A stretch of 64,000 bases of DNA, from positions 2,024,001 through 2,088,000 of the forward strand of contig NZ_CP080524.1 of the NCBI RefSeq assembly GCF_024746795.1, read 5' to 3'. This document shows positions 1,986 to 63,275 of the stretch, in pieces. Under the pieces are notes generated by a model, which was given only the letters and a program-made list of their open reading frames with translations, ran no database searches and had not been told where the DNA came from. How positions within the stretch are numbered: position 1 is the stretch's first letter; each line of letters starts with the position of its first letter. Source of the stretch: Mesorhizobium sp. AR10 (GTDB lineage: Bacteria; Pseudomonadota; Alphaproteobacteria; Rhizobiales; Rhizobiaceae). A program made the position numbers and the translations under genes.

Positions 1986-1996
1986 CGCACCTTTAA
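1982..1996. promoter_or_regulatory. CtrA-like box TTAACGCACCTTTAA
   Basis: This is a perfect TTAA-N7-TTAA sequence, the full-site consensus of the cell-cycle regulator CtrA in alphaproteobacteria. It overlaps the stop codon of the preceding gene and lies between convergent genes, so a direct promoter role is doubtful. It differs by one base from a second copy at 2992-3006. Confidence 0.4.
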
Positions 1997-2054
1997 CACT
2001 AAGCCATTGTTTTCGTTGGAAGGCGTTACCGCAGTCCCGAAGATTCAGCGGCGT

Positions 2055-2702
2055 CTAGCGCTCTGGCCAGTGCGCCGTCTTTCTGACTATCAGTTGATTG
2101 CCCCGGTGCTGTTCAGTCATGCAGCCCTTAAAGACGCGGGCGAATAGCTCGATCGCCGGGCCGGGCCTGGCCTGATCCGCTACTTTTTTGGTAATCCCCC
2201 ATCGCAGATCGTCCCAGATCATCGTGCCGCCGATCTTTAACAATGACCAGGCGAGGGCGGTTTGTGGAAATACATCATCACGTCGCTTGCCCGCGTCGAG
2301 ATAGATCACGTCGAATCGAGCGGCTTCGGTCGCCAAGGTTTCCATTACGGCAAGGGCTGACCCTTTGATCTTTCGGCAACGATCCAGATAGGAACTGGTG
2401 TTTAGATCAAAACGGCGTTCAACCTCCGGTGCGGCAAATATGTCGACGCATGTCACATGGCCCAAGGGAAACATTTCGAGCAGGGCGACGGCTGACCGGC
2501 CTTCGTAAGAACCAAGCTCCAGAACGGCGACCTTCTCAGACCGCATATGGCGCAACGGGGCAAACCAAAACGGCAATTTCTTGCTCAACCAGTCGCTCGT
2601 GAAGTCCTTACCCTCGAACCACGACGCGCATTCTGGCGGTAGTATGCTGTTCTGATTTGGCGGGGGCGCCTTTTTGAGCCCAAGAAACGTTTTCAAGCCC
2701 AT
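2055..2702 (-). CDS. Class I SAM-dependent methyltransferase (Methyltransf_24 type)
   Basis: The 215-residue protein has a motif I sequence VLELGSYEGRSA (about residues 60-71), an acidic strand-2 end CVDIF, DVIYLDAGKRRDD as the motif II/Asp loop and IGGTMIWDDLRW as motif III. This is the arrangement of class I methyltransferases in the family related to rhamnosyl O-methyltransferase and cephalosporin hydroxylase-like proteins. The start at 2702 is the only in-frame ATG near the N-terminus. By eye its base composition is less GC-biased than its neighbours, and it sits alone between unrelated genes, which may indicate acquisition. Substrate unknown. Confidence 0.75.
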   Translation of the reverse strand: MGLKTFLGLKKAPPPNQNSILPPECASWFEGKDFTSDWLSKKLPFWFAPLRHMRSEKVAVLELGSYEGRSAVALLEMFPLGHVTCVDIFAAPEVERRFDLNTSSYLDRCRKIKGSALAVMETLATEAARFDVIYLDAGKRRDDVFPQTALAWSLLKIGGTMIWDDLRWGITKKVADQARPGPAIELFARVFKGCMTEQHRGNQLIVRKTAHWPER

Positions 2703-3065
2703 CGTTTCTGTCTCCCGATCATGGCGGGCCTCCTAGCATGTAACTCGAAAAGTCGCCAGCTATGACCGGGCAACCCTCCACACGGATGGACTGTCTTCCG
2801 CCCAGTTTGCCGGCGATCGCCTCGATTGCGCCGACGCCGGTGGGTACTGTGGCTGCCATGGGTCAGTGCAAAATCGGCGCCTTCCGAGAGATACCCAGTC
2901 GATGGCCACGCACATCAATCTGGGGCGTCCACGCCGCGGCAACGCGGAAGAGACAAGCGATTGATTAGAAAGCGCTTTAATTTTTTCCGACTTAACGCGC
3001 CTTTAAACCGCCGCATCTACTCTTCAACCCGAGCGCCATAGGCATCGGGACAGACAGCGCAACGC
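2703..3065. other. 363-bp intergenic region upstream of the PBP gene
   Basis: No convincing gene is visible. Short frames on both strands lack ribosome binding sites and coding bias. The right end is AT-richer and carries the CtrA-like box at 2992-3006, so the last 100 bases are probably the promoter region of the penicillin-binding protein gene. Confidence 0.5.
2992..3006 (+). promoter_or_regulatory. CtrA-like box TTAACGCGCCTTTAA upstream of PBP1A gene
   Basis: This is a perfect TTAA-N7-TTAA site ending 59 bases before the start codon of a class A penicillin-binding protein. CtrA controls cell-cycle and envelope genes in alphaproteobacteria, so control of this peptidoglycan synthase is plausible. 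It is a near copy (14 of 15 bases) of the site at 1982. Confidence 0.5.
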
Positions 3066-5315: not shown

Positions 5316-5367
5316 CCCCTCGCCACCGCAGCCGGCTTCCGCTACATGTCCCGCTGGAGACCGCGAC

Positions 5368-6120
5368 ATGGCTGAAACCGATAGCAGAAAAACGATCGTG
5401 CTGACCGGCGCCAGCCGCGGCATCGGCCACGCCACGGTCAAACGCTTTTCGCGCGAGGGCTGGCGCGTCATCACCTGCTCGCGCCAGGCTTTTGCTGAGG
5501 ACTGTCCATGGCCGGCCGGCCCGGAAGACCATATCAAGGTCGATCTTGCCGATCAGGAAGATGTCGGCATCGCCATTTCGGAAATCCGCCATCGGCTGGA
5601 AGCGCATGGCGGCCAGTTGCATGCGCTTGTCAACAATGCCGGCATTTCGCCCAAGCTCAAGGACGGCAACAGCCGCATGAACTCGATCGACACGCCGATG
5701 CATGTCTGGCGCGACGTGTTCCAGGTCAATTTCTTCGCGCCGATCATGCTGGCCAGAGGCCTGTTCAAGGAATTGGCGGCGGCGAAGGGCTCGATCGTCA
5801 ACGTCACCTCTATCGCCGGCAGCCGCGTGCATCCTTTTGCCGGCACCGCTTACGCGACATCGAAGGCGGCGCTCGGCTCCCTGACACGCGAGATGGCGCA
5901 TGATTTCGGCCCGCACGGCATCCGCGTCAATGCGATCGCACCCGGCGAGATCGACACCGCGATCCTGTCGCCGGGCACGGCCAAGATCGTCGAGACGATC
6001 CCGCTGCGGCGGTTAGGCACCACGGCCGAAGTCGCCGACATCATCTTCTTCCTGTGCTCGCAGCAGGCGTCCTATGTGACGGGCTCGGAAATCCATATCA
6101 ATGGCGGCCAGCACGTGTGA
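5368..6120 (+). CDS. SDR-family oxidoreductase
   Basis: The 250-residue protein is a classical short-chain dehydrogenase/reductase. It has the nucleotide-binding motif TGASRGIG at residues 12-19, the NNAG structural motif in LVNNAGIS, the catalytic YxxxK in AYATSKAAL with an upstream Ser in VNVTSIAGS, and the C-terminal YVTGSEIHINGGQHV typical of family ends. The substrate cannot be inferred. The ATG at 5368 is preceded by TGGAG; the frame is open upstream but that part overlaps the PBP gene. A degraded copy of the 3' end of an SDR gene lies 3.3 kb downstream at 9404-9454. Confidence 0.88.
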   Translation: MAETDSRKTIVLTGASRGIGHATVKRFSREGWRVITCSRQAFAEDCPWPAGPEDHIKVDLADQEDVGIAISEIRHRLEAHGGQLHALVNNAGISPKLKDGNSRMNSIDTPMHVWRDVFQVNFFAPIMLARGLFKELAAAKGSIVNVTSIAGSRVHPFAGTAYATSKAALGSLTREMAHDFGPHGIRVNAIAPGEIDTAILSPGTAKIVETIPLRRLGTTAEVADIIFFLCSQQASYVTGSEIHINGGQHV

Positions 6121-6137
6121 GCGGCTGACGCATTCGG

Positions 6138-7322
6138 TCAGATCGTTTTTGCCCGTCCCGCCAGGCTTCCCAGGACTGCCATCAGCAAGGTGGCGATGGC
6201 GCAGGCGGCCAGAGCAAAGCTCCAAGTTCCGGTCGCGTCATGGGTGAGACCGGCTAGCGGCGGGCCCGCGGCGGCCAGCGAATAGCCCAGGCATTGCGCC
6301 ATTCCCGACAGCGCCGCCGCTTCCTGGCTATTCGAGGCCTTCAAGCTGACGAACGAAAGGCCAAGCACGAAGGCGGCACCCGCGCCGAAGCCAAAGAGCG
6401 CTACCCAAAGTGCTGCAAGGGCCGGAAGCTGCCACAGGCCCAGCAGCGAAAGGCAGGTGGTCAGCGACACGCCCACGGCGAGCGCCCGCTGGTCCTTCAT
6501 ACGCTTGACGGCGGCACCGAGGAGCAGGCCGGGGATCGCGATTGCCAGTTGAGACAGCCCATGCAGCGAGCCTGCGGTAGCCACCGGGTAGCCGGCCTCT
6601 GCCAGGATCGAGGGCAACCATCCGACGATCACGTAGAAGACCAGTGAAGTGAGGCCCAGAAATCCGGTCACTTGCCACGCAAGGGCCGAGCGCCAGATGC
6701 GTCCGCGGTCATGCGTGGAGGATGCCTCTCGCTCCGGGGCGGAAGACAGCTGAAGCTGGGGAGCCCAGACGATCAAGGCTGCGACTGGAAAGATCAGCGT
6801 GCAGGCAAGCGAGAGGTGCCAACTCGATCCGGGCAATTGAGCAAGCGGGATCGCCGCTGTCGATGCGAGTGCCTGCGCAAGCCCGGACGCGATAGCATAG
6901 GCGCCGGTCAGGCCGGCGACCCGGTTGGGAAAATCCCGCTTCAGCAGGCTTGGGAGCAGGACGTTAGCGACGGCAATCCCGGCGCCAAGCGTGCCGGTTC
7001 CAAGGAACAGCGCCCAGATGGGGCCCGTCGAGCGCAGGGCAATACCGGCCGCAACAACAAGCAGCGCGCCGAACAAGGACTTCTCGATGCCGTATCGGCG
7101 CGCCAGGCCGGCCGCGAAGGGTGAGATCGCCGCGAACGCCAGCAAGGGAAGGGTCGTCAGCACACCTGCTTCGGCTGCGCTGATGCCGCTGTTTTCGCGG
7201 ATCATGCCCAGCATCGGCGCCACACTGGTGATGGGCGTGCGGAGCGTCGATGCGATCAGCAGGATGCCAAAAACGAGAAGCCCCTGGCCGCTGGATGTTC
7301 TGACAACCTCTCTTACCGTCAT
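6138..7322 (-). CDS. MFS transporter, CynX/NimT-like
   Basis: The 394-residue protein is almost entirely hydrophobic with about 12 membrane segments. The opening STLRTPITSVAPMLGMI and the loop AGLARRYGIEKSL match the CynX/NimT (cyanate or nitroimidazole transporter) branch of the major facilitator superfamily. It probably exports or imports a small polar compound across the inner membrane. A good AGGAG ribosome binding site precedes the ATG. It reads toward the SDR gene and ends 17 bases from it. The transported compound is unknown; the neighbouring quinone oxidoreductase and AraC regulator may belong to the same stress-response set. Confidence 0.82.
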   Translation of the reverse strand: MTVREVVRTSSGQGLLVFGILLIASTLRTPITSVAPMLGMIRENSGISAAEAGVLTTLPLLAFAAISPFAAGLARRYGIEKSLFGALLVVAAGIALRSTGPIWALFLGTGTLGAGIAVANVLLPSLLKRDFPNRVAGLTGAYAIASGLAQALASTAAIPLAQLPGSSWHLSLACTLIFPVAALIVWAPQLQLSSAPEREASSTHDRGRIWRSALAWQVTGFLGLTSLVFYVIVGWLPSILAEAGYPVATAGSLHGLSQLAIAIPGLLLGAAVKRMKDQRALAVGVSLTTCLSLLGLWQLPALAALWVALFGFGAGAAFVLGLSFVSLKASNSQEAAALSGMAQCLGYSLAAAGPPLAGLTHDATGTWSFALAACAIATLLMAVLGSLAGRAKTI

Positions 7323-7469
7323 TGCAGGCTCCTGACCTTGTTGTTAAGCGCGACGCAGTCCTTCTGTCCTCGTGCGCTTTGGTTTGCGTGTTACGGAAAA
7401 CGATCGCCAAATACCGTCAATCATCTCCAGCCCGCGCCAAGCGCAGGGCCATTGACCGAAATGGCCGGC

Positions 7470-8390
7470 TCATCCGGCCATGGTGAGAACAGCCTTGCCG
7501 CTGAAGCTGCGCTGTCGCAGTGCCTCAAGGGCTTGGGCGATGTCTGTCCACGGCACGGTTAGGGACACGCGGGTATCCAGCCGGCCAGCCGTGACCTTAG
7601 TGAGCAGCGAGGCGATGTCCGCGCCAATGCCTGAGCCGGAAGTGTAGTAAGCGAACGTCTGAAGCCTCGCGCCCTCGTGACCCGGAACGAACTGGCGAAA
7701 TCCAATGGGCGTCAGTTCGCCACTGCTCGAACCGAACATGACGATGGTCCCGCCAGGCGAGACACGTCCGATCGCGTGTGCCAGGCTTTCGCCACCGACC
7801 GACTCGGTGATCAGTGAGAACGGCCCACTGGCCAACTCGATCGACTCGACGACCTGCTCGGCTCCAAGGCCGCGGAGATCCTCGGCATGCCGGGCGGCGG
7901 CGATTGCGGTCACCGAGGCGCCTTGCTCGCGGGCGATCTGGATCTGGAAACGCCCGACCGCACCGCTTGCACCTGTGATCAGGACCTGCTGGCCGGCCAG
8001 GTCACCGCCATGGCGCAAGGTCCTTAGCGCCGTCGTGCCCGCGACCGGAAGCGTGGCGGCGGAAACGAAGCTGACGTCATCCGGCAGGACGGCGAGACGG
8101 TCGGTTGGAACGGCGACACGTTCGGCCCAGCCGGCCTCGTCGACCAAAGCCACAACCCGGGTGCCAACGGCCGGCCCGGAACCATCGGCTGCTGCCTGTT
8201 CGACAACCCCAACGATGTCCTGGCCAGGTATCCAGCCGTCCGGACGTATGGTGAGCAGGCGCAGTTCGCCGCGGTTCAACGAGGTTGCGTGCACCGAGAC
8301 GAGCGCCTCATTCGCGAAGGGCTGAGGGTCCTCGACCTCGGCGAGCCTCAGCCTAGTGGTGCTGTCGGGAGACATGACGAGGGCGAGCAT
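7470..8390 (-). CDS. Zinc-type alcohol dehydrogenase-like / quinone oxidoreductase (MDR family)
   Basis: The 306-residue protein starts MLALVMSPDSTTRLRL. I chose the ATG at 8390 because AGGAAAG lies at the correct distance upstream; a longer frame is open but its extra 51 residues do not resemble the family. The GroES-like N-terminal part contains NRGELRLL and GQDIVGVVEQAA, and the Rossmann part contains ITGASGAVGRFQIQIAREQGA for NADPH. No structural zinc cysteine cluster is seen, as in quinone oxidoreductases. It is divergent from the AraC regulator at 8588, which probably controls it. The likely role is NADPH-dependent reduction of quinones or enals. Confidence 0.82.
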   Translation of the reverse strand: MLALVMSPDSTTRLRLAEVEDPQPFANEALVSVHATSLNRGELRLLTIRPDGWIPGQDIVGVVEQAAADGSGPAVGTRVVALVDEAGWAERVAVPTDRLAVLPDDVSFVSAATLPVAGTTALRTLRHGGDLAGQQVLITGASGAVGRFQIQIAREQGASVTAIAAARHAEDLRGLGAEQVVESIELASGPFSLITESVGGESLAHAIGRVSPGGTIVMFGSSSGELTPIGFRQFVPGHEGARLQTFAYYTSGSGIGADIASLLTKVTAGRLDTRVSLTVPWTDIAQALEALRQRSFSGKAVLTMAG

Positions 8391-8587
8391 GGGTCGTACT
8401 TTCCTGCCGGTTGCGGATGCCTGCCTAGCCGTGCAAAGCACGGCAAGCTGGCCCAGTACCCATCGAGATGGCGGTCGGCGATGGGCGCGCGGGATCAACG
8501 GGATCACTATGCGCAACCGAAACCTATCGACTTCCCCGGGCAAAGAATTTAGCTACCATGGCGTTTAGTCGCTAAAAGTCGTCAATC

Positions 8588-9394
8588 ATGAGACAGCCTC
8601 TTCGCTACCCGTGGCTCAATTTCGATGTAGATGATGTACTCGCACCGGCGATTGCGGTGCGCGTCGACGTCACCGACACCAGGGCGGAGGTGCCCGCCCA
8701 TCAGCACCGCAAGGGACAACTCGTCTTCGCACTTGGAGGCGGCGTCACATGCCGCGTCCCAAGCGGCCTGTGGATGGTTCCGCCTCATTGCGGGGTGTGG
8801 ATTCCCGGCGATATGGAACACAGCAATATCGCGACCGCCAATGCCCGGATCTTCTTCGTATACATTGAGCCGGGAGCTGCCGATCTGCCGGACCGGTGCT
8901 GCACGCTTTCGATCTCGCCACTGCTGCGCGAACTGATCACCGAGCTGTCGGATTGTGCGCCGGAGGAGCCAAGAGGCGATCTCCTGGCAGGGATACTGCT
9001 CGCCGAACTGCCGCGCATGCCTGTGCAGCAATTGCATCTGCCGATCTCGGCTGAGCCACGCTTGCGGCGGATCGCCGAAGCGCTGGCGCAAGATCCTGCC
9101 GACCGCAGCACCTTGGCGGAGTGGGCCGACCGCGTCGCGCTCAGCGAGAGCAGTCTCGCCCGTCTCGTCGTGAAGGAGACAGGGTTGAGCTTTGGCCGCT
9201 GGCGCCAGCAATTGCACTTGATCGTCGCAATACGAGAGCTGGCCTCCGGTGCGAGCGTGCAGCAAGTTTCGGGCGATCTCGGTTACGACTCCGTCACGGC
9301 CTTCATCACCATGTTCAAGAAGGCGCTTGGGAAACCCCCGGCAAAGTATCTCAGCAGTGTCGCGCAGAATGGCGGCTCTGCATTCGTCGCTTGA
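8588..9394 (+). CDS. AraC-family transcriptional regulator
   Basis: The 268-residue protein has an N-terminal cupin sensor domain (VPAHQHRKGQLVFALGGG) and a C-terminal double helix-turn-helix (LSESSLARLVVKETGLSFGRW, then VQQVSGDLGYDSVTAFITMFKKALGKPPAKYL), the standard AraC arrangement. It is transcribed away from the quinone oxidoreductase gene across a 197-bp gap, so it most likely regulates that gene. The upstream region includes a short inverted element in TAGTCGCTAAAAGTCGTC, too weak to call as an operator. Inducer unknown. Confidence 0.87.
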   Translation: MRQPLRYPWLNFDVDDVLAPAIAVRVDVTDTRAEVPAHQHRKGQLVFALGGGVTCRVPSGLWMVPPHCGVWIPGDMEHSNIATANARIFFVYIEPGAADLPDRCCTLSISPLLRELITELSDCAPEEPRGDLLAGILLAELPRMPVQQLHLPISAEPRLRRIAEALAQDPADRSTLAEWADRVALSESSLARLVVKETGLSFGRWRQQLHLIVAIRELASGASVQQVSGDLGYDSVTAFITMFKKALGKPPAKYLSSVAQNGGSAFVA

Positions 9395-9403
9395 TTGACC
9401 TTC

Positions 9404-9454
9404 ATCCTATGTGACCGGTCCGGAAATCGACATCAATGGCGGCAGGCACGTGTA
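9404..9454 (+). pseudogene. Remnant of the 3' end of an SDR oxidoreductase gene
   Basis: The sequence translates to SYVTGPEIDINGGRHV, nearly the same as the C-terminus of the intact SDR protein encoded at 5368-6120 (SYVTGSEIHINGGQHV). About 43 of 50 bases match 6070-6119. There is no upstream SDR body: the AraC gene ends 10 bases before it, and the expected stop codon has become TAC. It is therefore a fragment of a second SDR gene, or of a duplicated one, left next to the 6.1-9.4 kb block. Confidence 0.75.
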
Positions 9455-9505
9455 CCGAGCCGCCTTCTCGCTACACCAAGGGGCAGAAGCAGGGATTTTC
9501 GGGCG

Positions 9506-10648
9506 TCACATCCCGAACCAGCGGGCGCGGCGGCTGGAGCCGAAAATCTCCTTGTCCGCCCGCAGGGCGACCGATGGCTCGTGATAGGTTCCGGTCGGCT
9601 TTGGACCAGAGAAGAAATCCACTTCGACCTTGCCGATGCGCCCGCCGCCGAATTCGATATAGCAGGTGCCGAAACCGTTGTACTCCGTCGCCTTGCCGCT
9701 GTTGCGCAGTCTGGCGATCAAGTCGCTGGCGACGGCGCGTGCAGCGCCTTCGGCGAACACGCCGGCCTTCGGCGTGCCGGTGTTGGCGCCGTCACCCACT
9801 GCGTAGACACCGGGATATCTGGTTTCCAATGTCCGCGGATTGACCGGAATCCAGCCGCCCTCTGCCATGCCGCTGCCTATGACCACGTCGGGCACGCGAT
9901 GCTTGGGGACGCCAAGGAACAGATCGAAGGGCATTTCGGCTCCGTCATCGAGCGTTGCGACCTTGCGGGTGTTGTCGATCGAGGCGATGCGGCGGCCCGG
10001 AATGAATGTGATGCTGCGCTCGGCGAAGGCGGCCTCCAGCGCGCGCGAGGTTTCCGGGGAAGGCGGCACCGGGCTGGACAGCGGCAGCACGAAACTGATC
10101 TCGCAGGCTTCGCGGACACCGCGATTGACCAGATAGTCGTGCAGCATCAAGGCGCATTCGCTGGGCGCCGGCGGGCATTTGTATGGCGCGCCGCAGACCC
10201 CGACCAGCGCCTTTCCCCCGGTGAAGGTGGGCAGCACATCGCGCAGGCGCTCAGCCCCGGTCACCGTGTAGAATTCGTTGGCCTCGGCCAGCCCCGGCGT
10301 GGCGTCAAAATCATAGTCGGCGCCAAGAGCCACGATCAGGAAATCGGCCTCGTAGGCGCCACCATCGGTGGCGACGCGCCGCCTTTCGGGATCGATCGCG
10401 GTGATCGTCTGCCTGACAAGGCGCACGCCCGATTTCGCGAAGTTGCGGTATGGCATGCGCACTGCGTCGAGCGTGGTGTGGCCGAACATCACGTCGAGCT
10501 TGGAAAAGCCGAAGACGAAGGCATCGCTTTTGTCGATCAAGGTCACATCGACGCCGTCGCCGAACGTCTCGGACAACAAGGTGCTGAGTTCAAGGCCACC
10601 AAAGCCCGCCCCCAGGACGAGCACGCGCGGCTTGCTGATCGTGTTCAT
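9506..10648 (-). CDS. NAD(P)/FAD-dependent oxidoreductase (sulfide:quinone reductase / NDH-2 like)
   Basis: The 380-residue protein begins with the FAD-binding motif VLVLGAGFGGLELS (residues 9-22). It has a second FAD contact in YAVGDGANTGTPKAGVFAEGAA and a middle VGVCGAPYKCPPAPSECAL loop with conserved cysteines, as in sulfide:quinone oxidoreductase and flavocytochrome c relatives. A GAGGGGG ribosome binding site precedes the ATG. It probably moves electrons from NADH or a sulfur compound to quinones at the membrane. Whether it acts on sulfide depends on the cysteines, which cannot be settled here. It is a single-gene unit. Confidence 0.8.
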   Translation of the reverse strand: MNTISKPRVLVLGAGFGGLELSTLLSETFGDGVDVTLIDKSDAFVFGFSKLDVMFGHTTLDAVRMPYRNFAKSGVRLVRQTITAIDPERRRVATDGGAYEADFLIVALGADYDFDATPGLAEANEFYTVTGAERLRDVLPTFTGGKALVGVCGAPYKCPPAPSECALMLHDYLVNRGVREACEISFVLPLSSPVPPSPETSRALEAAFAERSITFIPGRRIASIDNTRKVATLDDGAEMPFDLFLGVPKHRVPDVVIGSGMAEGGWIPVNPRTLETRYPGVYAVGDGANTGTPKAGVFAEGAARAVASDLIARLRNSGKATEYNGFGTCYIEFGGGRIGKVEVDFFSGPKPTGTYHEPSVALRADKEIFGSSRRARWFGM

Positions 10649-10841
10649 GGAACCCCCTCATTGTGCAGCGCGCGTGTGCGGCCGTCCAGGCGTTACGGCG
10701 CGCCCGGTTGGGACCAATGCCGCAGCGTAGCAGTGTCCTTGGCAAAGATCACGCTGAGAACTCGTCGACCAGATTGAGGTATCGCCGGAATTCACCCCGC
10801 AAGACCCGAGCGAAGCGGAGACCGGAGAGCACTTCGGCTCT

Positions 10842-12617
10842 TCAGTCGCCTTTGCCACCAGCGCTGGAGCCGCTCCCCATCACCTCTTCGACGATGCCGC
10901 GGGCGATCTCGCGCTCGCCCATGATGACGGTGTCGGCGCCAAGCCCCCTGAGGTGTTCGACCTCGGCATCGGAATGGGCGCGGGCGATGACGTTGATCCC
11001 AGGATTGGCGGCGCGAGCGCGCAGCACGATCTGCCCCGCCTCGAAGGCGTTTGGAATGGCAAGGATCAGCCGGCTCGCGCCCTCGGGATTGGCGGCAGCA
11101 AACACGTCGCCATTCGCCGCGTTGCCGGACACGGTTTCGACGCCGTCGGCCCTGAGCCTTGCCAGCGTCTTGTCGGCGTCCTCGATGACGATGAAGGGAA
11201 GTGCGGCCTGTTTCAGCGCAGCGCCAACCAGGCTTCCGACCCGACCGTAGCCGATCAGGATGGCATGACCGGAAAGGCTTGTCCGGGGTGGCGGGCCATC
11301 CTCCTTAGCCACGGCAGCAACCGAAGCCACCTGGCCGGGTTCCGTCGCCGGACCGATCGGCCTTGACTCAGCTGAGGGTCCAGCCTTGGCGGCTCGCGCC
11401 TCCAGCCATGGCTTCATCCAGTCGAGAGCCAGGAACATCAGGGGATTGAGGACGATCGACAGGATGGCGCCGGCGAGGATGAGGTCGCGGCCCTGTTCGG
11501 GCAGCAGCTTCAGTCCGACGCCGAGTTCGGCCAGGATGAAGGAGAATTCGCCGATCTGGGCGAGGCTGGCCGAAATCATCAGTGCCGTAGCGAGCGGATA
11601 ACGGAAGGCGACGACGATGACGAACGCCGCCAGCGATTTGCCGATAACGATGATGGCCAGCGTCGCCAGGATCGGCCAGCCATTGTTGACCAGGCTGAAC
11701 GGGTCGAACAGCATACCGACCGAGACGAAGAACAGCACCGAGAAGGCATCGCGCAGCGGCAGCGATTCCTCGGCCGCGCGATGGCTAAGCTCGGATTCGC
11801 TCATGATCATGCCGGCGAAGAAGGCGCCCAGCGCCAGCGACACGCCGAACAGCTTGGCCGCACCGAAGGCAACGCCGAGCGCGATGGCAAGCACCGCCAG
11901 CCTGAACAGTTCGCGCGAACCGGTATGGGCGACATAGTGCAGGATCCACGGAATGACCCGGCGGCCGACCACCAGCATGACGACGACGAAGGCGGCGACC
12001 TTGGCCAGCGTGATGCCGACGACGCCCCATATGCCGTAGCTGGCCGGTAAGGACAGCAAGCTGCTATGCGTGTCCGCCGGCTCCTGGCCGCCGAGCACGC
12101 CGGCAAGTGCCGGCAGCAGCACCAGCGCCAGCACCATGGCCAGGTCCTCGACGATCAGCCAACCGACGGCGATGCGGCCACGTTCGGTCTCGATCAGCCG
12201 CCGCTCCTGCAAGGCGCGCAACAACACCACGGTCGAGGCGACGGAAAGTGCCAGGCCAAAGACAAGCCCGGCGCCCATCGACCAGCCGAGCATCCAGGAC
12301 AGCCCGGCACCCAACGCCGTGGCAAAGCCGATCTGCACTATGGCGCCGGGCACGGCGATGGCGCGGACGGACAACAGGTCCTTCAGCGAGAAATGCAGGC
12401 CGACGCCGAACATCAGCAGGATGACGCCGATCTCGGCTAATTCATTGGCGAGGCCGGCATCGGCGACGAAGCCGGGCGTGTTCGGTCCGACCAGCACGCC
12501 GGCGACGAGGTAGCCGACCAGCGGCGGGATGCGGAAGCGGTTGGCGAGGGCGCCGAAGACGAAAGCCAGCCCCAGACCGGCGACGATGGTGGCGATAAGG
12601 GGCGTGTCATGCGGCAT
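10842..12617 (-). CDS. Kef/YbaL-type monovalent cation:proton antiporter with RCK domain
   Basis: The 591-residue protein has about 12-13 membrane segments over residues 1-390 (CPA2 Na/H exchanger domain, with IPPLVGYLVAGVLVGP and LLMFGVGLHFSL) and a cytosolic TrkA-N/RCK domain from about 445 starting ILIGYGRVGSLVGAAL, the NAD-binding Rossmann motif. The order matches YbaL/KefB-like K+ efflux systems gated by nucleotide. A linker at 400-440 is Pro/Ala-rich. It probably exports K+ in exchange for H+ during pH or electrophile stress. It ends with a short Ser/Gly-rich tail. Single-gene unit on the minus strand. Confidence 0.87.
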   Translation of the reverse strand: MPHDTPLIATIVAGLGLAFVFGALANRFRIPPLVGYLVAGVLVGPNTPGFVADAGLANELAEIGVILLMFGVGLHFSLKDLLSVRAIAVPGAIVQIGFATALGAGLSWMLGWSMGAGLVFGLALSVASTVVLLRALQERRLIETERGRIAVGWLIVEDLAMVLALVLLPALAGVLGGQEPADTHSSLLSLPASYGIWGVVGITLAKVAAFVVVMLVVGRRVIPWILHYVAHTGSRELFRLAVLAIALGVAFGAAKLFGVSLALGAFFAGMIMSESELSHRAAEESLPLRDAFSVLFFVSVGMLFDPFSLVNNGWPILATLAIIVIGKSLAAFVIVVAFRYPLATALMISASLAQIGEFSFILAELGVGLKLLPEQGRDLILAGAILSIVLNPLMFLALDWMKPWLEARAAKAGPSAESRPIGPATEPGQVASVAAVAKEDGPPPRTSLSGHAILIGYGRVGSLVGAALKQAALPFIVIEDADKTLARLRADGVETVSGNAANGDVFAAANPEGASRLILAIPNAFEAGQIVLRARAANPGINVIARAHSDAEVEHLRGLGADTVIMGEREIARGIVEEVMGSGSSAGGKGD

Positions 12618-12758
12618 TGTCTATGGAGCGCCTTTCAAGAACCGTGATGTCGGATGCACGCGGCCCGAAGCCGCCACCTTTGCAATATGGTGGAGGGGAC
12701 GTCGGCGACGCAACCCGCAATGGCGGAAATTGGTAGCGAAAGGCGCTGAAAGACGAAA

Positions 12759-12788
12759 GGCGCGCGCAGTACAATCGCTGCGCGCGCC
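12759..12788 (-). terminator. GC-rich hairpin terminator after the host-attachment gene
   Basis: A perfect 11-bp inverted repeat (GGCGCGCGCAG / CTGCGCGCGCC) with an 8-base loop lies 36 bases downstream of the host-attachment stop codon. On the minus strand it is followed by TTTCGTCTTTC, a partial U-run, so it fits a terminator for that gene. Confidence 0.6.
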
Positions 12789-12824
12789 GAATGGTGTATG
12801 CCGGATTGTCGGCTGAACTTTATT

Positions 12825-13274
12825 TCAAGCCGCCTGCAGCATGGTCTCGATGTCGATCACGGCATGGTTGGTCAAGGTCTTGGGAATTTCGGCCTGCACC
12901 TTGTCGCTGACTTCCTTGTGCAGCTTCTTGCGCATGGTGCCGAGCATCGAGGGTGGCGCGATCAGTACGATCTCGTCAAAGATGCCGTGGTGGGCGAGCT
13001 TGTAGAGCCGGTCGGCTACCTCGTCGGCGAAGCGTTCCTTGCCCAGCCGGTGCCAGTCGGTGTCCTCGCCCGCGCTGCGATGAGCCGAAGGGCCATCATT
13101 GTGACGGCCGGGGCTGTCACTGCCCTGCTCGCGCGTGGCCGGATTGTCCTGCTTCATCTCCTGCACCAGCTGAAGGTTCGGATAGAGGCCATCGCCCTCA
13201 TTCTTGAGGAACAGCGCTTTTTCGCCATCGGCCACCATGATCCAGAGGCCATTTTTCAGGTTGATTTTGCTCAT
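12825..13274 (-). CDS. Host attachment family protein
   Basis: The 149-residue soluble protein begins MSKINLKNGLWIMVADGEKALFLKNEGDG and contains DWHRLGKERFADEVADRLYK and FDEIVLIAPPSMLGTMRKKLHKEV. This matches the family annotated as required for attachment to host cells (PF10116), first named from Agrobacterium; the biochemical function is not established, although the fold resembles the release-factor-like/Host_attach group. The middle (residues 45-65) is polar and low complexity. An AAGGAA ribosome binding site precedes the ATG. Monocistronic, with its own terminator. Confidence 0.85.
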   Translation of the reverse strand: MSKINLKNGLWIMVADGEKALFLKNEGDGLYPNLQLVQEMKQDNPATREQGSDSPGRHNDGPSAHRSAGEDTDWHRLGKERFADEVADRLYKLAHHGIFDEIVLIAPPSMLGTMRKKLHKEVSDKVQAEIPKTLTNHAVIDIETMLQAA

Positions 13275-57099: not shown

Positions 57100-57852
57100 C
57101 TACGAGCTTGTATCTGTCTTCAGGCTCGCAAGTTCCAGCGCTGAAGCATCTTCGCCGAAAGCGCGGGTGGCGCGGGCAGCCGCTTCCAGCAAGGGTCGCG
57201 TCATGCGTTGGAGAAAGGCCGCGTCGACACGGGTGCTCGGGCCAGCAAGCGTCAATGCCCCGAGCAAGGTGCGCCCCGGTCCGAACACCGGCGCCGATAC
57301 GCCCGCTGTCTCGGGGTCGCGGTCACCCAGCGACAGAAAGTGGTAGGTTGCGCGGATGGTGTCGTATGGCTCACCTTGCTGACCGGAAAACGCCGCCAGC
57401 ACGCGGCCACCCGAACCGGAAAACAATGGCAGCACATCGCCTTCCCGGATGGTGTAGCGGATGGGGTGCTTCGACTCGACACGATAGAGACAGGTGCGGA
57501 CATCGCCGGAGCGGACATAGAAAGCAACGCTTTCCCAGCTTCGATCAGCGAGGTCGCGCATGATCGGCAGCAGGATGTCTGCCGCCACCACCGAACGTTG
57601 GTAAAGCGCGCCAAGCCTGAAGGTGGCCGGGCCGACACGGTAGCGGCCGTCGTCGAGACGTTCCAGCAACTGGCCGCGCAGCAGCGAGTTCGCCAGCCTC
57701 AGAATCGTGCTCTTGTAAAGACCGGTTCGCGCTGCGATTTCAGCAAGGCTGAGCGACCGGTCGGCGGTGGCGAAGGCATCCAGAATGGCGATTGCGCGAT
57801 CGAGCGCGGCAACGCCTTCGGTCGATGCAAGCTTGGTTGGCGCTTCAGTCAT
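57100..57852 (-). CDS. IclR-family transcriptional regulator
   Basis: The 250-residue regulator has an N-terminal winged HTH (VAALDRAIAILDAFATADRSLSLAEIAARTGLYKSTILRLANSLL) and a C-terminal effector domain (VRSGDVRTCLYRVESKHPIRYTIREGDVLPLFSGSGGRVLAAF). It is divergent from the TTT-CoA transferase cluster and almost certainly controls it. The start at 57852 gives the usual length; an ATG at 57915 is also possible, but it lies 8 bases from the putative operator. Inducer unknown. Confidence 0.85.
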   Translation of the reverse strand: MTEAPTKLASTEGVAALDRAIAILDAFATADRSLSLAEIAARTGLYKSTILRLANSLLRGQLLERLDDGRYRVGPATFRLGALYQRSVVAADILLPIMRDLADRSWESVAFYVRSGDVRTCLYRVESKHPIRYTIREGDVLPLFSGSGGRVLAAFSGQQGEPYDTIRATYHFLSLGDRDPETAGVSAPVFGPGRTLLGALTLAGPSTRVDAAFLQRMTRPLLEAAARATRAFGEDASALELASLKTDTSS

Positions 57853-57922
57853 CTGCTTGACGATTTCATTTCGATTCCCAGCCGGGCGGAGCTGAGTGAA
57901 AGGATTGTGCCGCATGTAACCT

Positions 57923-57959
57923 GTTCTGTCTAGAAGAACGCCGTTCCTGTTGACAGAAC
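57923..57959. promoter_or_regulatory. 37-bp palindromic operator candidate for IclR
   Basis: The sequence is GTTCTGTC-tagaa-GAAC-gcc-GTTC-ctgtt-GACAGAAC: perfect 8-bp outer and 4-bp inner inverted repeats, fully symmetric in spacing around a 3-base centre. It lies between the IclR gene and the start of the tctC-like gene (58056), where an IclR operator would be expected. Confidence 0.65.
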
Positions 57960-58055
57960 GACGTGAAATCGGCATGAATTTTTGTCGAGCGGGTCTGAAT
58001 TCAGGCTACGTTACTGGCAGGCACCGGAGGAGGTGTCGTGATTTGGAGGAATCCC

Positions 58056-59042
58056 ATGCTGAACAGACGCAAATTCTTCAAATTCTTAATGAGCACCGCG
58101 GCGGCCGGCGCCGCCGGTTTTGCGGCGTTGCATCTCACACCGGCATTCGCGCAGGACGCGCCGCAGATCCAGATCTTCGTACCGGCGGCGCCCGGCGGCG
58201 GCTGGGACCAGACAGGGCGCACCATAGACCAGGTGCTGCGCAGTGAAAAACTGATCTCAGGCTCGCAGATCACCAATGTCGGCGGCGCCGGCGGTACGGT
58301 CGGTCTGCCGCAATTCATCAGCCAGTGGAACGGCAAGGGCAATTCGTTGATGGTTGCCGGCATGGTCATGGTTGGCGCCATCATTGCCAACAAATCCGCC
58401 AACAACCTCTCGGAAGTCACGCCGATCGCCCGCCTCACCGGCGAGTTCGAGGCGTTGGTGGTGCCGGCAGACTCGCCGTTCAAGACGGCCGCCGATTTCG
58501 TTGCGGCCCTCAAGGCCGATCCGACCAAGGTTCCGGTGGCCGGCGGCTCGGCCGGCGGCTCGGACCACATCCTGTTCGGCCTGATCGCAAAGACGGTCGG
58601 TGTTCCGGCAACCAACCTTTCCTATGTCCCGTTCGCGGGCGGTGGCGAGGCGCTGTCGGCGCTTCTCGGCAACCAGGTCGCGGCCGGCATCTCGGGCTTC
58701 GGCGAATTCTCCGAGCAAGTCAAGGCGGGCGCGCTTCGCCTGCTGGCCATTTCCGCGGACAAGCGCCAGGACGGCATCGACGCACCGACGCTGAAGGAAG
58801 CCGGCATCGATGTCGAGCTGTTCAATTGGCGCGGCGTCTTCGCACCGCCGGGTGTTTCCGACGCCGACAAGGCAGCAATGGTCACGCTGATCGAGACCAT
58901 GGCCAAGAGCGAGGCCTGGGCCACCGAATGCAAGAACCGCAACTGGACGCAAATCCTGCTCACCGGTGACGACTATGCCAAATTCCTTGCCGACGACACC
59001 GCCCGCATCGGGGCCATCCTCAAGGATCTCGGCCTCGCCTGA
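58056..59042 (+). CDS. Tripartite tricarboxylate transporter substrate-binding protein TctC (second system)
   Basis: The 328-residue protein has a twin-arginine-like signal (NRRKFFKFLMSTAAAGAAGF, residues 3-22, cleavage after AFA) and the TctC fold with PAAPGGGWDQTGRTIDQVL, ITNVGGAGGTVGL and YVPFAGGGEALSALLGNQV. I chose ATG 58056 with GGAGGAA upstream; a GTG at 58038 also has GGAGGAGG. It heads an apparent operon of five genes and is presumably the periplasmic sensor/capture protein for the acid used by the pathway below. A hairpin follows its stop. Confidence 0.88.
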   Translation: MLNRRKFFKFLMSTAAAGAAGFAALHLTPAFAQDAPQIQIFVPAAPGGGWDQTGRTIDQVLRSEKLISGSQITNVGGAGGTVGLPQFISQWNGKGNSLMVAGMVMVGAIIANKSANNLSEVTPIARLTGEFEALVVPADSPFKTAADFVAALKADPTKVPVAGGSAGGSDHILFGLIAKTVGVPATNLSYVPFAGGGEALSALLGNQVAAGISGFGEFSEQVKAGALRLLAISADKRQDGIDAPTLKEAGIDVELFNWRGVFAPPGVSDADKAAMVTLIETMAKSEAWATECKNRNWTQILLTGDDYAKFLADDTARIGAILKDLGLA

Positions 59043-59049
59043 TGTCTTG

Positions 59050-59076
59050 AAGGGGCGGCCAGCGCCACCCCTTTTT
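59050..59076 (+). terminator. Hairpin after the second tctC-like gene
   Basis: AAGGGG(C)GGC-CAGC-GCC(A)CCCCTT has one internal mismatch and is followed by TTTTT. It matches the position of the hairpin after the first tctC gene and probably lets only part of the transcription continue into tctB. Confidence 0.65.
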
Positions 59077-59168
59077 AGACTTTCACCTCCGCATGGACAT
59101 ATGATCCATCGGGGGTGAAACTACGTTGAGGTCGGCCGTGGGATGCCGGCCGTCTTGGGAGGACGATC

Positions 59169-59705
59169 ATGAGCACCAGCGACCAGCAGGCGGCGCCGTC
59201 GCGCCTTGCCATGCCCGAATTGTTGATCGGCATCGGGCTTCTGGCCTGCGCCGGAGCGGTAGCCTGGCAGACCCTGGCGATCCCGGTGTCGCCGCTCTAC
59301 TCCAAGGTTGGCCCGACTGTCTTCCCCTACCTCACCATGGTAGGCATGGTGGTTCTTTCCCTGCTTCTCATCGTCGCCGCAATACGCGGTGGCTGGCAGC
59401 CCGAGGAAGAAAAGGAAACGCCGACCGACTGGAAGGCGATGGGCTTCGTCGTCGCCGGCCTGATCGCAAACCTGGTGCTGATCCAGCCGCTCGGCTTCAC
59501 CGCGGCTTCCGTGATCATGTTCGTTCTCATCTGCTACGGCTTTGGCAGCCGGCACACGCTGCGTGACGCGCTGACCGGCCTGATCCTGGCACTTGCGGCC
59601 TATTTCGGCTTTGCACGGGCGCTTGGCGTCAACATCGGCGCCGGCTTCATCGAGAACCAGCTGAATACGGCCATCGATTCGATCATCAGCATGTTGAGGG
59701 GCTGA
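59169..59705 (+). CDS. Tripartite tricarboxylate transporter small subunit TctB (second system)
   Basis: The 178-residue membrane protein has four segments ([80 protein letters not shown]). It shows little sequence match with the TctB at 49825 beyond topology, as usual in this family. GGGAGGA precedes the ATG. It lies 4 bases before tctA. Confidence 0.85.
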
Positions 59706-59709
59706 CGCC

Positions 59710-61233
59710 ATGGAAACGCTCAGCCATCTTGCACACGGATTTTCGGTCGCTTTCACGCCAGTCAATCTCATGTGGTGCCTGCTTGGCACCACGCTCGGCA
59801 CCGCAATCGGCGTGCTGCCCGGCCTCGGGCCGGCGCTGACCATCGCCCTGCTCTTGCCGATCACCTACCAGGTGGCGCCGGAGGCGTCCTTCATTCTGTT
59901 TGCCGGCATCTACTACGGCGCCATGTATGGCGGCTCGACGACATCGATCCTGCTCAACACACCGGGCGAAAGCGCCACCATCGTCACCGCGCTCGAGGGC
60001 AACAAGATGGCCCGTTCCGGCCGCGGTGGCGCGGCATTGGCTACTTCGGCAATCGGCTCCTTCGTTGCCGGTACCATCGGCACGCTGGGTGTCGCCTTCC
60101 TGGCGCCGGTCGTGGTGAAGTTCGCGCTGGCTTTCGGCCCGGCTGAATATTTTTCGCTGATGGTGCTGGCCTTCATCACGGTTTCGGCGGTGCTCGGCTC
60201 GTCGTCGGTGCGCGGCCTGACCAGCCTGTTCATCGGCTTTGTCATCGGCATGATCGGCGTCGACCTGCAGACCGGGCAGCCGCGCTTCACCTTCGGCATG
60301 AACCAATTGCTCGATGGTGTCGACGTCATCATCGCCGCCGTCGGCCTCTTCGCCGTCGGCGAAACGCTGTACATGGCTTCACGCCGCTATGCCGGCAAGG
60401 ACGAGATCGTGCCGCTCAAAGGGTCGCTCTACATGACCGCCGCCGAGTGGGGGCGTTCGTGGAAGGCATGGCTGCGGGGTGCTGCGATCGGCTTCCCGAT
60501 CGGCGCCATGCCGGCCGGCGGCGCCGAAATCCCGACCTTCCTGTCCTATGCGATCGAGAAAAAGCTCTCCAGGCACAAGGAGGAGTTCGGCACGGTCGGC
60601 GCCATCGAAGGCGTTGCCGGTCCGGAAGCCGCCAACAATGCGTCGGCCGCAGGCGTGCTGGTGCCGATGCTGACGCTGGGATTGCCGACCTCGGCGACGG
60701 CGGCGATCATGCTTTCCGCCTTCCAGAGCTACGGCATCAATCCGGGGCCACTGCTGCTGACAACACAGGCCGATCTCGTCTGGGGTCTTATCGCCAGCCT
60801 GTTCATCGCCAACGTCATCCTCGTCATTCTCAACCTGCCGCTGATCGGACTGTGGGTACGGCTGTTGAAGATCCCGGCGCCGCAGCTCTATGCCGGCATC
60901 CTGGTGTTCGCGACGGTCGGCACCTACGGCATCTCGCAATCGCCGATCGATCTCGTCATCCTCTATCTGCTGGGTGCTGCCGGCTTCCTCATGCGCCGCT
61001 TCGATTTCCCGACAGCGCCTGTCATCATCGGCATGATCCTCGGACCACTCGCCGAGACGCAGTTCCGCCGCGCGATGACCATTTCGAATGGCGACTGGTC
61101 GGTGTTCTACACCCACAAGCTGTCGCTGGCGCTGCTGACGCTGGCTTTGATCGGCCTGGCTGGGCCGCACATCTGGGCCTACATCCAGCACAGGCGCTTG
61201 CGCGGACCGGAGCACGTGCCTGGCGATGCCTGA
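59710..61233 (+). CDS. Tripartite tricarboxylate transporter large permease TctA (second system)
   Basis: The 507-residue permease has the TctA pattern: [55 protein letters not shown] and [21 protein letters not shown]. It is a true paralogue of the TctA at 48306 with a different repertoire of loops. It probably imports, with a cation, the compound captured by the TctC protein at 58056. It starts 4 bases after TctB. Confidence 0.92.
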
Positions 61234-61248
61234 TCTGCTTGTGACGTC

Positions 61249-62427
61249 ATGACCGATCTGCTTTCCGGCATTCGCGTCCTCGACCTGACCAATGTTCTGG
61301 CCGGCCCTTACTGCGCCTACCAGCTGGCGTTACTTGGTGCCGATGTGATCAAGGTCGAGGCGCCGCAAGGTGGCGATCTGGCGCGCCAGCTCGGCGCCTC
61401 GCCGGAGCTCAACAAAGCCGCCATGGGCGCTTCGTTCCTGGCGCAGAACGCCGGCAAGCGATCGGTGATGCTCGATCTCAAGAAGGACGCCGATCGCGAG
61501 CGTTTCCTCGATCTGGTCGCCTCTGCCGACGCGTTGGTCGAGAATTTCCGCCCTGGCGTGATGGACCGGCTGGGTCTCGGCTATGAGACGCTTAAAGAGG
61601 TCCGGCCCGGCCTCGTCTATTGCGCAATATCGGGCTTCGGACAAACCGGACCGATGCGCGACAATCCGGCATACGACCAGATCATCCAGGGACTTTCGGG
61701 CATCATGAGCATCACCGGCACACCGGAGACCGCGCCGCTGCGGGTCGGTTATCCTGTCGCCGATACGCTGGGTGGGCTGGTCGGGGCTTTTGCCATCGCC
61801 GCCGCGCTGGTGAAGCAGAAGACGAGCGGCGAGGGCGCTTTCCTCGACGTGTCGATGCTCGAATGCACGCTCTCCGCACTTGGCTGGCCGGTCTCCAACT
61901 ATCTGACCGCCGGCGTCGATCCGCAGCCGATGGGCAACGAGAACATGACCGCAGCACCTTCCGGAGCGTTTCACACCGGCGACGGCCTGCTCAACATCGC
62001 CGCCAACAAGCAGGAGCAATTCGTGATGCTCTGCCAGTTGATCGGGCGGCCGGAACTGGCGCAGGATTCGCGCTTTGCCGAGCGCGAGACGCGCAAGCGC
62101 AACCGCGCCGCCTTAAAGGTGCTGATCGAGGCTGCCCTGGCGAGCGCCTCGGCAGCCAGCTGGGAAGAAAAGCTCAATCGCGCCGGCGTGCCGGCGGGCC
62201 GGGTGCTGACGATCCCGCAGGTGCTGAAGGAACGCCAAGTGATCGAGCGCGGCATGACGGCTCGTTTCCAGGGTGTGCCCGGCATGGACCGGCCGCTGAC
62301 CGTCGTGCGCGGCGGGTTCATGGTCGATGGCGCAGCACCATTGCCGACCTTGCCGCCGCCGGCGTTGGGCGAACATATGGACGAGGTCTTTGCCAGCCTG
62401 CCGCCGCGCGCAAGGGTACAGGCATGA
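61249..62427 (+). CDS. CaiB/BaiF CoA-transferase family protein
   Basis: The 392-residue protein is a class III CoA-transferase. It starts LLSGIRVLDLTNVLAGPYCAYQLALLGADVIKVEAPQGGD, has LDLKKDADRERFLDLV, and the catalytic Asp in RDNPAYDQIIQGLSGIMSITG, as in formyl-CoA transferase. It moves CoA between carboxylic acids without a covalent acyl-enzyme ester of class I type. Next to a TTT and a citryl-CoA-lyase-like gene, it likely activates the imported acid. Its stop overlaps the lyase start (ATGA at 62424). Confidence 0.9.
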   Translation: MTDLLSGIRVLDLTNVLAGPYCAYQLALLGADVIKVEAPQGGDLARQLGASPELNKAAMGASFLAQNAGKRSVMLDLKKDADRERFLDLVASADALVENFRPGVMDRLGLGYETLKEVRPGLVYCAISGFGQTGPMRDNPAYDQIIQGLSGIMSITGTPETAPLRVGYPVADTLGGLVGAFAIAAALVKQKTSGEGAFLDVSMLECTLSALGWPVSNYLTAGVDPQPMGNENMTAAPSGAFHTGDGLLNIAANKQEQFVMLCQLIGRPELAQDSRFAERETRKRNRAALKVLIEAALASASAASWEEKLNRAGVPAGRVLTIPQVLKERQVIERGMTARFQGVPGMDRPLTVVRGGFMVDGAAPLPTLPPPALGEHMDEVFASLPPRARVQA

Positions 62428-63275
62428 GTGGCGGGGAGAAAAAGACAGGCCGCGAGCGTGGTGAAGAATGGTGGCAGACCGATATCATCGAGATGCGTCC
62501 CGGCGTCATCCGGCTGCGCGGCTACGAAATCCAGGATCTGATCGGCCGCGTCAGCTTTCCGGCTGTCATCTGGCTGATGCTGCGTGGCGAATTGCCAAGC
62601 GAAGATCAGGCGGCGCTGCTCGGCATCGCGCTTGGTGCTGCCGTCGACCACGGGCCGCAGGCGCCGTCGATCGCCATTGCCCGCATGGCCATCACGTGTG
62701 GCGTCGGCATCAACAGCGCCATGGCCTCGGCCGTCAATGTGCTGGGCGACGTGCATGGCGGCGCCGGCGAACAGGCGCTGTCTTTCTATGGCGACATCGC
62801 CGTGGCGCTCGATCGGGGCGCGACGCTGGGCGATGCCGTATCGATGCGGCTCGACCGCTTCTTCGCCGAGGAAAAAGGCTATGTGCCGGGATTTGGCCAC
62901 CGCTTCCATCCCGTCGATCCGCGCGCGCCGCGGCTGATCGAGGTGACCCGCGACTTTGCCGCGCGCGGCATCGTCAACGGGCGTTTCGCCGACATCGCCG
63001 AGGCGATCGAGGCCGAGGTCGCGCGACGCAAAGGCAAGAAGATCCCGCTCAACATCGACGGCGCCACCGCCGTCATATATGGCGAGCTCGGCTTTCCGCC
63101 GCCGCTGACGCGCGGCCTTTTTGTCCTGTCGCGCTCGGTCGGCATCTTGGCGCATGCGTGGGAACAATCGCAGCAAACCGACCGCAACAAGGGACCGCTG
63201 CCGCGCGAATGGCTGTGGGCCTATACCGGTACCCCGGTGCGACCTTTTCCAGAACCCGACCATGAAAGCGGGTGA
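62424..63275 (+). CDS. Citryl-CoA-lyase-like citrate synthase family protein
   Basis: The 283-residue protein is a short citrate-synthase-like enzyme. The catalytic residues of citrate synthase are visible as H111 (LGDVHGGAGEQAL), H159 (GFGHRFHPVDPRAPRL) and D212 (NIDGATAVIYGELGF), and DHGPQAPS is at 75-82. It lacks the N-terminal part of full citrate synthases, like the lyase halves of citryl-CoA lyase and ATP-citrate lyase. It probably cleaves a 3-hydroxy-acyl-CoA into acetyl-CoA or a homologue and a keto acid. Coupled to the CoA-transferase by ATGA. The precise substrate is not known. Confidence 0.85.
   Translation: MSGGEKKTGRERGEEWWQTDIIEMRPGVIRLRGYEIQDLIGRVSFPAVIWLMLRGELPSEDQAALLGIALGAAVDHGPQAPSIAIARMAITCGVGINSAMASAVNVLGDVHGGAGEQALSFYGDIAVALDRGATLGDAVSMRLDRFFAEEKGYVPGFGHRFHPVDPRAPRLIEVTRDFAARGIVNGRFADIAEAIEAEVARRKGKKIPLNIDGATAVIYGELGFPPPLTRGLFVLSRSVGILAHAWEQSQQTDRNKGPLPREWLWAYTGTPVRPFPEPDHESG

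Follow-up and report, generated by a model that had tools for sequence, protein, structure and literature searches.

A 64,000-nucleotide stretch of the Mesorhizobium sp. AR10 genome (contig NZ_CP080524.1, positions 2,024,001 to 2,088,000; this whole stretch is the window below) carries six genes within 57.1–63.3 kb: a divergent iclR gene, then tctC, tctB, tctA, a CoA-transferase gene and a lyase gene on one strand. Why should a tricarboxylate importer be encoded together with an enzyme that loads CoA onto acids and one that resembles a citryl-CoA lyase, and which acid would they share? We find that the six genes probably form an IclR-controlled catabolic operon, in which import would be followed by CoA transfer and by retro-Claisen cleavage to acetyl-CoA and a 2-oxo acid. 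We read this logic from three features—i.e. the gene order is conserved, the operon is lost in place in relatives, and the lyase is of the citryl-CoA-lyase type. The initial annotation of the locus had already proposed import, activation and cleavage of an acid such as citrate or citramalate; the three features strengthen that series of steps, and its choice of candidate acids is a fair one, with none of them proved.

The lyase and the operon around it

The genes, in window coordinates, are:

57100..57852, minus strand: IclR-family regulator, 250 aa from M42 (PF09339 and PF01614)
58056..59042, plus strand: TctC, binding protein (PF03401, 107 bits), with a signal motif seen in its sequence
59169..59705, plus strand: TctB, small membrane subunit, 178 aa (PF07331, 75 bits)
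59710..61233, plus strand: TctA, large membrane subunit, 507 aa (PF01970, 508 bits)
61249..62427, plus strand: class III (CaiB/Frc) CoA-transferase, 392 aa (PF02515, 397 bits), with Asp172 at the catalytic position
62424..63275, plus strand: citryl-CoA-lyase-type enzyme, 283 aa (NF004864, 424.7 bits; 6hxp, E 3.6e-42; predicted fold)

By sequence and predicted fold, the last of these proteins belongs to the citryl-CoA lyases, a family whose name rests on annotation. Its score against the NCBIfam model NF004864 ("citryl-CoA lyase") exceeds the cut-off of 261 bits, and by profile 6hxp, the citryl-CoA lyase of Hydrogenobacter, is the solved protein nearest to it. An ordinary citrate synthase paralogue with unrelated neighbours is, by comparison, extremely improbable. 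That reading could draw on the Pfam label, which is Citrate_synt only, and on three further citrate-synthase-family matches in the same genome. Against it, the fifteen citrate synthase models matched by the lyase return 22–85 bits for cut-offs of 332–594, and none is reached (the top scores are 84.9 against 590 and 84.4 against 421.3). In addition, an internal stretch of about 115 residues of Escherichia coli GltA is unmatched in the alignment, as expected of a short form that lacks the citrate synthase insertion, and a fold search places 6hxp and the citryl-CoA lyase (CCL) modules of ATP-citrate lyase at ranks 1–16, with the first citrate synthase at rank 17. Together with the conserved gene order, these results largely refute the paralogue.

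For GltA we assume the literature numbering, which omits the first Met, for the active-site residues H229, H264, H305, R314, D362, and R387. These align with lyase H76, H111, H159, R167, D212, and R237, all of them invariant in 77 of 77 distinct homologues (taken from 141 loci after removal of near-identical and short ones). GltA R407, which we take to be the second-subunit anchor of the distal carboxylate, falls on L259, a position that is not conserved. An R-x-K-G-P-x-P segment specific to the subfamily stands in place of this distal arginine, and its R254, K256, G257, P258, and P260 are invariant. Judged from the alignment, the lyase is an enzyme that retains the catalytic and alpha-carboxylate machinery and has a remodeled distal site, because the R407 equivalent varies while the five segment residues do not.

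The expected Pfam domain is present in each of the six proteins, and TctC, TctB, and TctA all exceed their own cut-offs, which gives a complete tripartite tricarboxylate transporter (TTT) set. Asp172 of the transferase aligns with an Asp at the matching place in YfdE (4hl6) and SUGCT (9br7), presumably the catalytic residue of class III CoA-transferases. Gaps of 126 (tctC-tctB), 4 (tctB-tctA), and 15 bases (tctA-transferase) are followed by a 4-base ATGA overlap between transferase and lyase, and the tctC start is the ATG at 58056, preceded by GGAGG. The initial annotation stands for the layout, where coordinates and Pfam agree with its divergent IclR gene and five-gene succession, and for the lyase, which it had described as a short lyase-like form keeping H111, H159, and D212. 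It had named an ordinary citrate synthase paralogue as an outcome that would refute it, and by sequence and predicted fold the lyase is no such paralogue. The flanking genes encode a GGDEF-EAL protein and a NUDIX hydrolase (both named by reading translations, without a family search), and the window's list of open reading frames (ORFs) holds no plausible additional gene from iclR to the NUDIX gene.

Upstream of tctC lie two further features:

57923..57959: predicted twin operator, GTTCT-N7-AGAAC (57923-57939) and GTTCC-N7-AGAAC (57943-57959), a conserved block in the iclR-tctC gap
57950..57955, plus strand: TTGACA, a possible -35 box within operator site 2, read from the sequence

In 62 aligned IclR-tctC upstream regions (the window and 61 loci), the block consists of two copies of approximately GTTC(T/C)-N7-AGAA(C/T) whose starts are 20 bases apart, and 31 of the 62 retain two exact GTTC-N8-AGAA sites. 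The 37-base pattern occurs at one place in the genome, which consists of two contigs, at up to three mismatches; a reversed control occurs nowhere. A promoter scan listed no plus-strand promoter at the operator region. It gave a promoter-like minus-strand site at 57932-57904 that overlaps operator site 1, with a scan total (2 against 1.1 expected) near chance. IclR probably represses by occupying the twin palindrome over the divergent promoters. The longest iclR ORF extends to 57975, and M42, 41 codons further in at 57852, is the more likely true start because five orthologous IclR genes were called at 248–261 aa (starts picked by codon score) and because the conserved operator falls within the longer reading.

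Conservation and loss of the operon

The initial annotation had proposed a search for the same five-gene order in related genomes, with a lack of conservation speaking against its reading. Among the best 80 of 400 loci from one scan of genome contigs, the order is kept in 67 (five genes in the same order and strand, within 6 kb, at >55% identity), and 61 of these also have the divergent IclR gene. The remaining 13 comprise two short contigs (L057 and L094), L096, which has transferase and lyase and no TTT match, and ten more distant loci (L105-L114).

Within the genus, lyase matches at E ≤ 1e-40 are found in 95 of 146 Mesorhizobium genomes. From a reading of the table by eye, the match is full or nearly full-length in 91, including four (G669, G723, G726, and G761) with one stop somewhere within the aligned stretch; the lyase is broken or fragmentary in G136, G537, G671, and G763. 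We then searched for the flanking GGDEF-EAL gene in 19 genus genomes—i.e. 17 of the 51 with no lyase match, plus G671 and G763—and found it at E ≤ 1e-200 in 10, 8 of them among the 17. Of these 8, three (L198, L200, and L201) carry lyase or IclR remnants beside the gene, three (L195, L197, and L202) have the NUDIX gene nearby and no remnant was found, and two (L203 and L204) show neither remnant nor NUDIX gene within the 1.5-kb flank. The locus of G763 (L199) retains transferase and lyase pieces, and those of G136 (L187) and G537 (L188) hold lyase and IclR pieces between the same flanks, L187 also with transferase pieces. Whole-lyase presence needs at least 16 changes on an rpoB tree (87 of 90 randomly drawn genus genomes). 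Given the remnants at the same site and this number of changes, the operon looks like an accessory function that is frequently lost in place. In an order-level search, the NF004864 cut-off was passed in 31 of 297 genomes.

Other settings of the lyase

A protein search returned at least 8000 homologues, a count that need not consist only of lyases of this kind. For genomic context, genes were called by script in 67 loci, the lyase being found in all 67, and 62 were kept after removal of the duplicates L106 and L115, the decayed L187 and L188, and L170; gene classes are BLAST clusters, with family searches on chosen members only. A CoA-transferase lies within seven genes of the lyase in 53 of the 62 loci and within two in 50. 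The same seven-gene distance includes TTT genes in 26 loci, a TRAP permease in 11, ABC-ATPase-cluster genes in 19, IclR in 29, and an AcnA-type aconitase in 5; importer types at lyase loci include TTT, TRAP, ABC, and DASS. In a lyase tree, the window's type (represented by L035, 93% identical) falls in a clade (100/99) with Agaricicola, Phyllobacterium, Bosea, and G287, and this clade adjoins the TRAP and SMP-30 loci L105 and L107.

Aconitase, PrpF, SMP-30 (lactonase-type), or 4-hydroxybutyrate-dehydrogenase-like genes stand beside the transferase-lyase pair in related loci, as if different acids converged on one citrate-like CoA ester. For example, L132 (12115-15524 and neighbors) combines TTT genes and PrpF with a transferase (32% identity to that of the window), an AcnA-cluster gene, and the lyase, all in a row, and its input may be an aconitate-like acid. 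An annotated ALDH and AcnA occur in L141 with a TcuA-like dehydrogenase (350.5 bits, below the cut-off of 369), and L133 has 4-hydroxybutyrate-dehydrogenase-like (430 of 500) and SSADH-like (483 of 646) genes. In Pectobacterium aroidearum (L113, 10944-15271 and following genes), the lyase operon runs on into genes for a DASS transporter and for the E1 component of 2-oxoglutarate dehydrogenase; such dehydrogenase genes could supply succinyl-CoA to the transferase. Two more genes after E1 encode 389 and 472 aa, the sizes of E2 and E3 (by size only).

Seven TTT-transferase-lyase loci (L171-L173, L131, L136, L180, and L190) contain a sensor-kinase-cluster gene, mostly with a response-regulator-sized neighbor (annotated as such in L136) and some with a solute-binding protein gene; in L171-L173, IclR is present as well. 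A lyase 63.6% identical to the window's (NC_007974.2:718644-719426) occurs in Cupriavidus metallidurans CH34, a strain said, in the accessible part of PMC2864759, to be without the citryl-CoA synthetase and citryl-CoA lyase route.

In nine of the 62 loci, the seven-gene distance around the lyase contains no transferase. Of these nine, six carry an acylating-aldehyde-dehydrogenase-cluster gene, three (L179, L184, and L185) carry neither, and no locus among the 62 has both (Fisher P = 1.4e-6). Five of the six aldehyde dehydrogenase loci and the three with neither gene make up one eight-member lyase clade, the sixth being L117, so these cases are not independent events. The neighbors of L125, L134, L177, L179, L182, and L183 include, in varying sets, QuiC-like, shikimate/quinate-dehydrogenase, sugar-isomerase-fold, Gfo/Idh/MocA, and thiamine pyrophosphate (TPP)-enzyme genes; the importer in this group is TRAP, with TTT genes in L125, and the neighborhoods of L184 and L185 differ from the rest of the clade. 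In L177 (operon span 1095-13199), the acylating aldehyde dehydrogenase is SauS-like at 430 bits, below the cut-off of 600, and the QuiC-like gene reaches 452 bits, below 1200. These neighbors suggest that L177-type loci serve a cyclitol-acid breakdown ending in the same cleavage, and it is possible that the operons of L177, L182, L183, L125, L134, and L117 represent an undescribed quinate-type pathway ending in a citrate-like acyl-CoA.

A broader reading of these settings, which we hold as a possibility and with some doubt, is that the lyase family forms the core of an undescribed modular bacterial breakdown of citrate-like acids as free CoA esters. Import through TTT, TRAP, ABC, or DASS systems and lactonase, aconitase, PrpF, tricarballylate-dehydrogenase-like, or alcohol/aldehyde dehydrogenase steps would serve as front ends. 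The CoA ester would come from the class III transferase or, in quinate/cyclitol-type operons, from an acylating aldehyde dehydrogenase acting after TPP-dependent ring opening or decarboxylation. The most reduced version would then be the Mesorhizobium operon, serving a citrate analogue such as homocitrate.

The acid, its rivals, and known routes

For the window's operon we infer the direction, the CoA donor, the reaction, the function of the operator, and the substrate as follows. The TTT system, with TctC as binding protein and TctB/TctA as membrane part, would import a citrate-type 2-hydroxy acid with a CH2-COOH arm adjoining a C(OH)(COOH) center. The class III transferase would load CoA onto this arm, most likely from succinyl-CoA or acetyl-CoA, and the citrate-synthase-fold lyase would reverse the Claisen reaction, releasing acetyl-CoA and a 2-oxo acid, both into central metabolism. 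IclR would keep the genes repressed from its twin palindrome.

Several results weigh against this proposal. The nine transferase-free loci show that the lyase does not always travel with a transferase, and the lyase is patchy in Pseudomonadota, with matches at E ≤ 1e-60 in 24 of 398 genomes, including the decayed G136 and G537. Its structure model is weak (mean predicted local distance difference test score, pLDDT, of 70), with a root-mean-square deviation from 6hxp of 13.9 A over the whole chain that leaves the domain placing unsure at a template modelling (TM) score of about 0.65–0.7. Since the R407 position is not conserved, binding of a distal carboxylate is not assured. The transferase matched seven NCBIfam transferase models, all of them below cut-off (for succinate-glutarate 299 of 750 bits, CoA:oxalate 283 of 522, mesaconate 266 of 700, formyl-CoA 202 of 442) and is about equally close to several characterized transferases; with no specific cut-off passed, it reveals neither donor nor acceptor. 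Finally, the link between nifH and the lyase is not significant on the rpoB tree, in an underpowered comparison. With kinship ignored, nifH is present in 73 of 91 genus genomes with a whole lyase and in 26 of 55 without (P = 5e-5). Over 12 independent pairs led by nifH, the lyase on average changes in the same direction in 2.6 and in the opposite direction in 1.0 (median P = 0.63). When the lyase leads, the figures over 10 pairs are 2.3 and 1.3 (median P = 1). The association thus gives no niche evidence for a plant-derived acid.

Which acid is imported could well be answered by a citrate analogue that the tricarboxylic acid (TCA) cycle cannot use directly (homocitrate, or a hydroxy- or alkyl-citrate), a choice that we favor tentatively. 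Citrate itself is rather unlikely. It would make the operon a two-enzyme citrate lyase, in which acetyl-CoA and citrate give citryl-CoA and acetate, and citryl-CoA then gives acetyl-CoA and oxaloacetate; CoA would recycle, and the net reaction would be that of the CitDEF citrate lyase without an acyl carrier protein. The family name and the nearest solved relatives, which are citryl-CoA lyases, fit this, as do acetate kinase and phosphate acetyltransferase genes annotated next to a Ruegeria plasmid locus. CitF has no match in the whole genome (3 of 14 control genomes match, including E. coli), which also favors citrate and extends the absence of CitDEF remarked on in the initial annotation. 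However, an aerobe that runs a TCA cycle has a direct use for citrate and no evident need to activate it. The aconitase or PrpF genes near some relatives would channel citrate to the cycle with no CoA activation, and the R407 position is not retained. Also on the side of citrate, the name-giving Salmonella TctC binds it, according to the accessible part of PMC2864759.

Citramalate, in the (R)- or (S)-form, is unlikely. It would be imported, activated from succinyl-CoA, and split into pyruvate and acetyl-CoA by the citrate-synthase-fold lyase. Among the top model and structure matches of the transferase are transferases named for glutarate, mesaconate, and hydroxymethylglutarate, a nonconserved R407 position would suit a methyl group, and the two reactions are known as a pair from other systems (EC 2.8.3.20 and 4.1.3.46; PMC8307300, accessible part). 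By contrast, R237 (GltA R387) and the invariant R254 and K256 suggest a bound second carboxylate, for which reason we prefer a citrate analogue, and the Pectobacterium operon is followed by a 2-oxoglutarate dehydrogenase E1 gene, not by a pyruvate enzyme. An acid other than a citrate analogue, citrate, or citramalate is quite improbable.

Among citrate analogues, homocitrate is of interest since, in partly accessible sources, legumes are described as supplying it to some rhizobia. The genome's other contig, C1, has a NifV-like homocitrate synthase gene (G000:C1:484720-485811; 474 against a cut-off of 462.9), so the strain may make homocitrate itself, and nifH lies on the same contig (668797-669621); Mesorhizobium loti is reported to be without nifV in the accessible part of PMC6934396. 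We did not use homocitrate as a link to symbiosis, because the nifH association lost significance on the tree.

The known routes nearest to the proposed operon differ in gene content or in the fold of the lyase. The Ccl of Hydrogenobacter thermophilus serves the reductive TCA cycle, where it follows a citryl-CoA synthetase that uses ATP. This Ccl (6hxp) and the CCL module of ATP-citrate lyase are likewise short citrate-synthase-fold lyases whose active-site motifs align with ours, whereas the window's lyase shares an import operon with a CoA-transferase and carries the R-x-K-G-P-x-P segment. CitDEF, a complex bound to acyl carrier protein, would share the net chemistry if the acid were citrate and the donor acetyl-CoA. 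The lyase of the itaconate route is of another, CitE-like fold family, and the citramalate CoA-transferase and lyase pair encoded in Chloroflexus genes has a lyase of another family and a role in assimilation. In the accessible part of PMC12290011, the itaconate degradation cluster consists of Ict, Ich, and (S)-citramalyl-CoA lyase, with CoA transfer to the acid followed by CoA-ester cleavage as proposed here, and the Cupriavidus necator cluster has a TTT binding-protein gene of unknown function nearby. Our operon differs in the citrate synthase fold of its lyase and in having no hydratase gene (within the operon; the rest of the genome was not searched). The same two-step logic applies to succinyl-CoA:(R)-citramalate CoA-transferase with (R)-citramalyl-CoA lyase (PMC8307300, accessible part). 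By analogy, the operon would work like the itaconate and citramalate routes without being a member of either, and would not be a CitDEF system. We found no description of it in the literature on citryl-CoA and citramalyl-CoA lyases, mostly titles and abstracts, with few subscription papers; PMC11005374 and PMC2864759 deal with other subjects.

If the proposal is correct, many heterotroph genes labeled "citryl-CoA lyase" or "citrate synthase" would belong to a catabolic module for acids without a known breakdown, a module separate from citrate lyase, from ATP-citrate lyase, and from the itaconate route. Many TTT transporters would thereby gain a substrate class, and the use of citrate analogues by soil and root bacteria may find an explanation.

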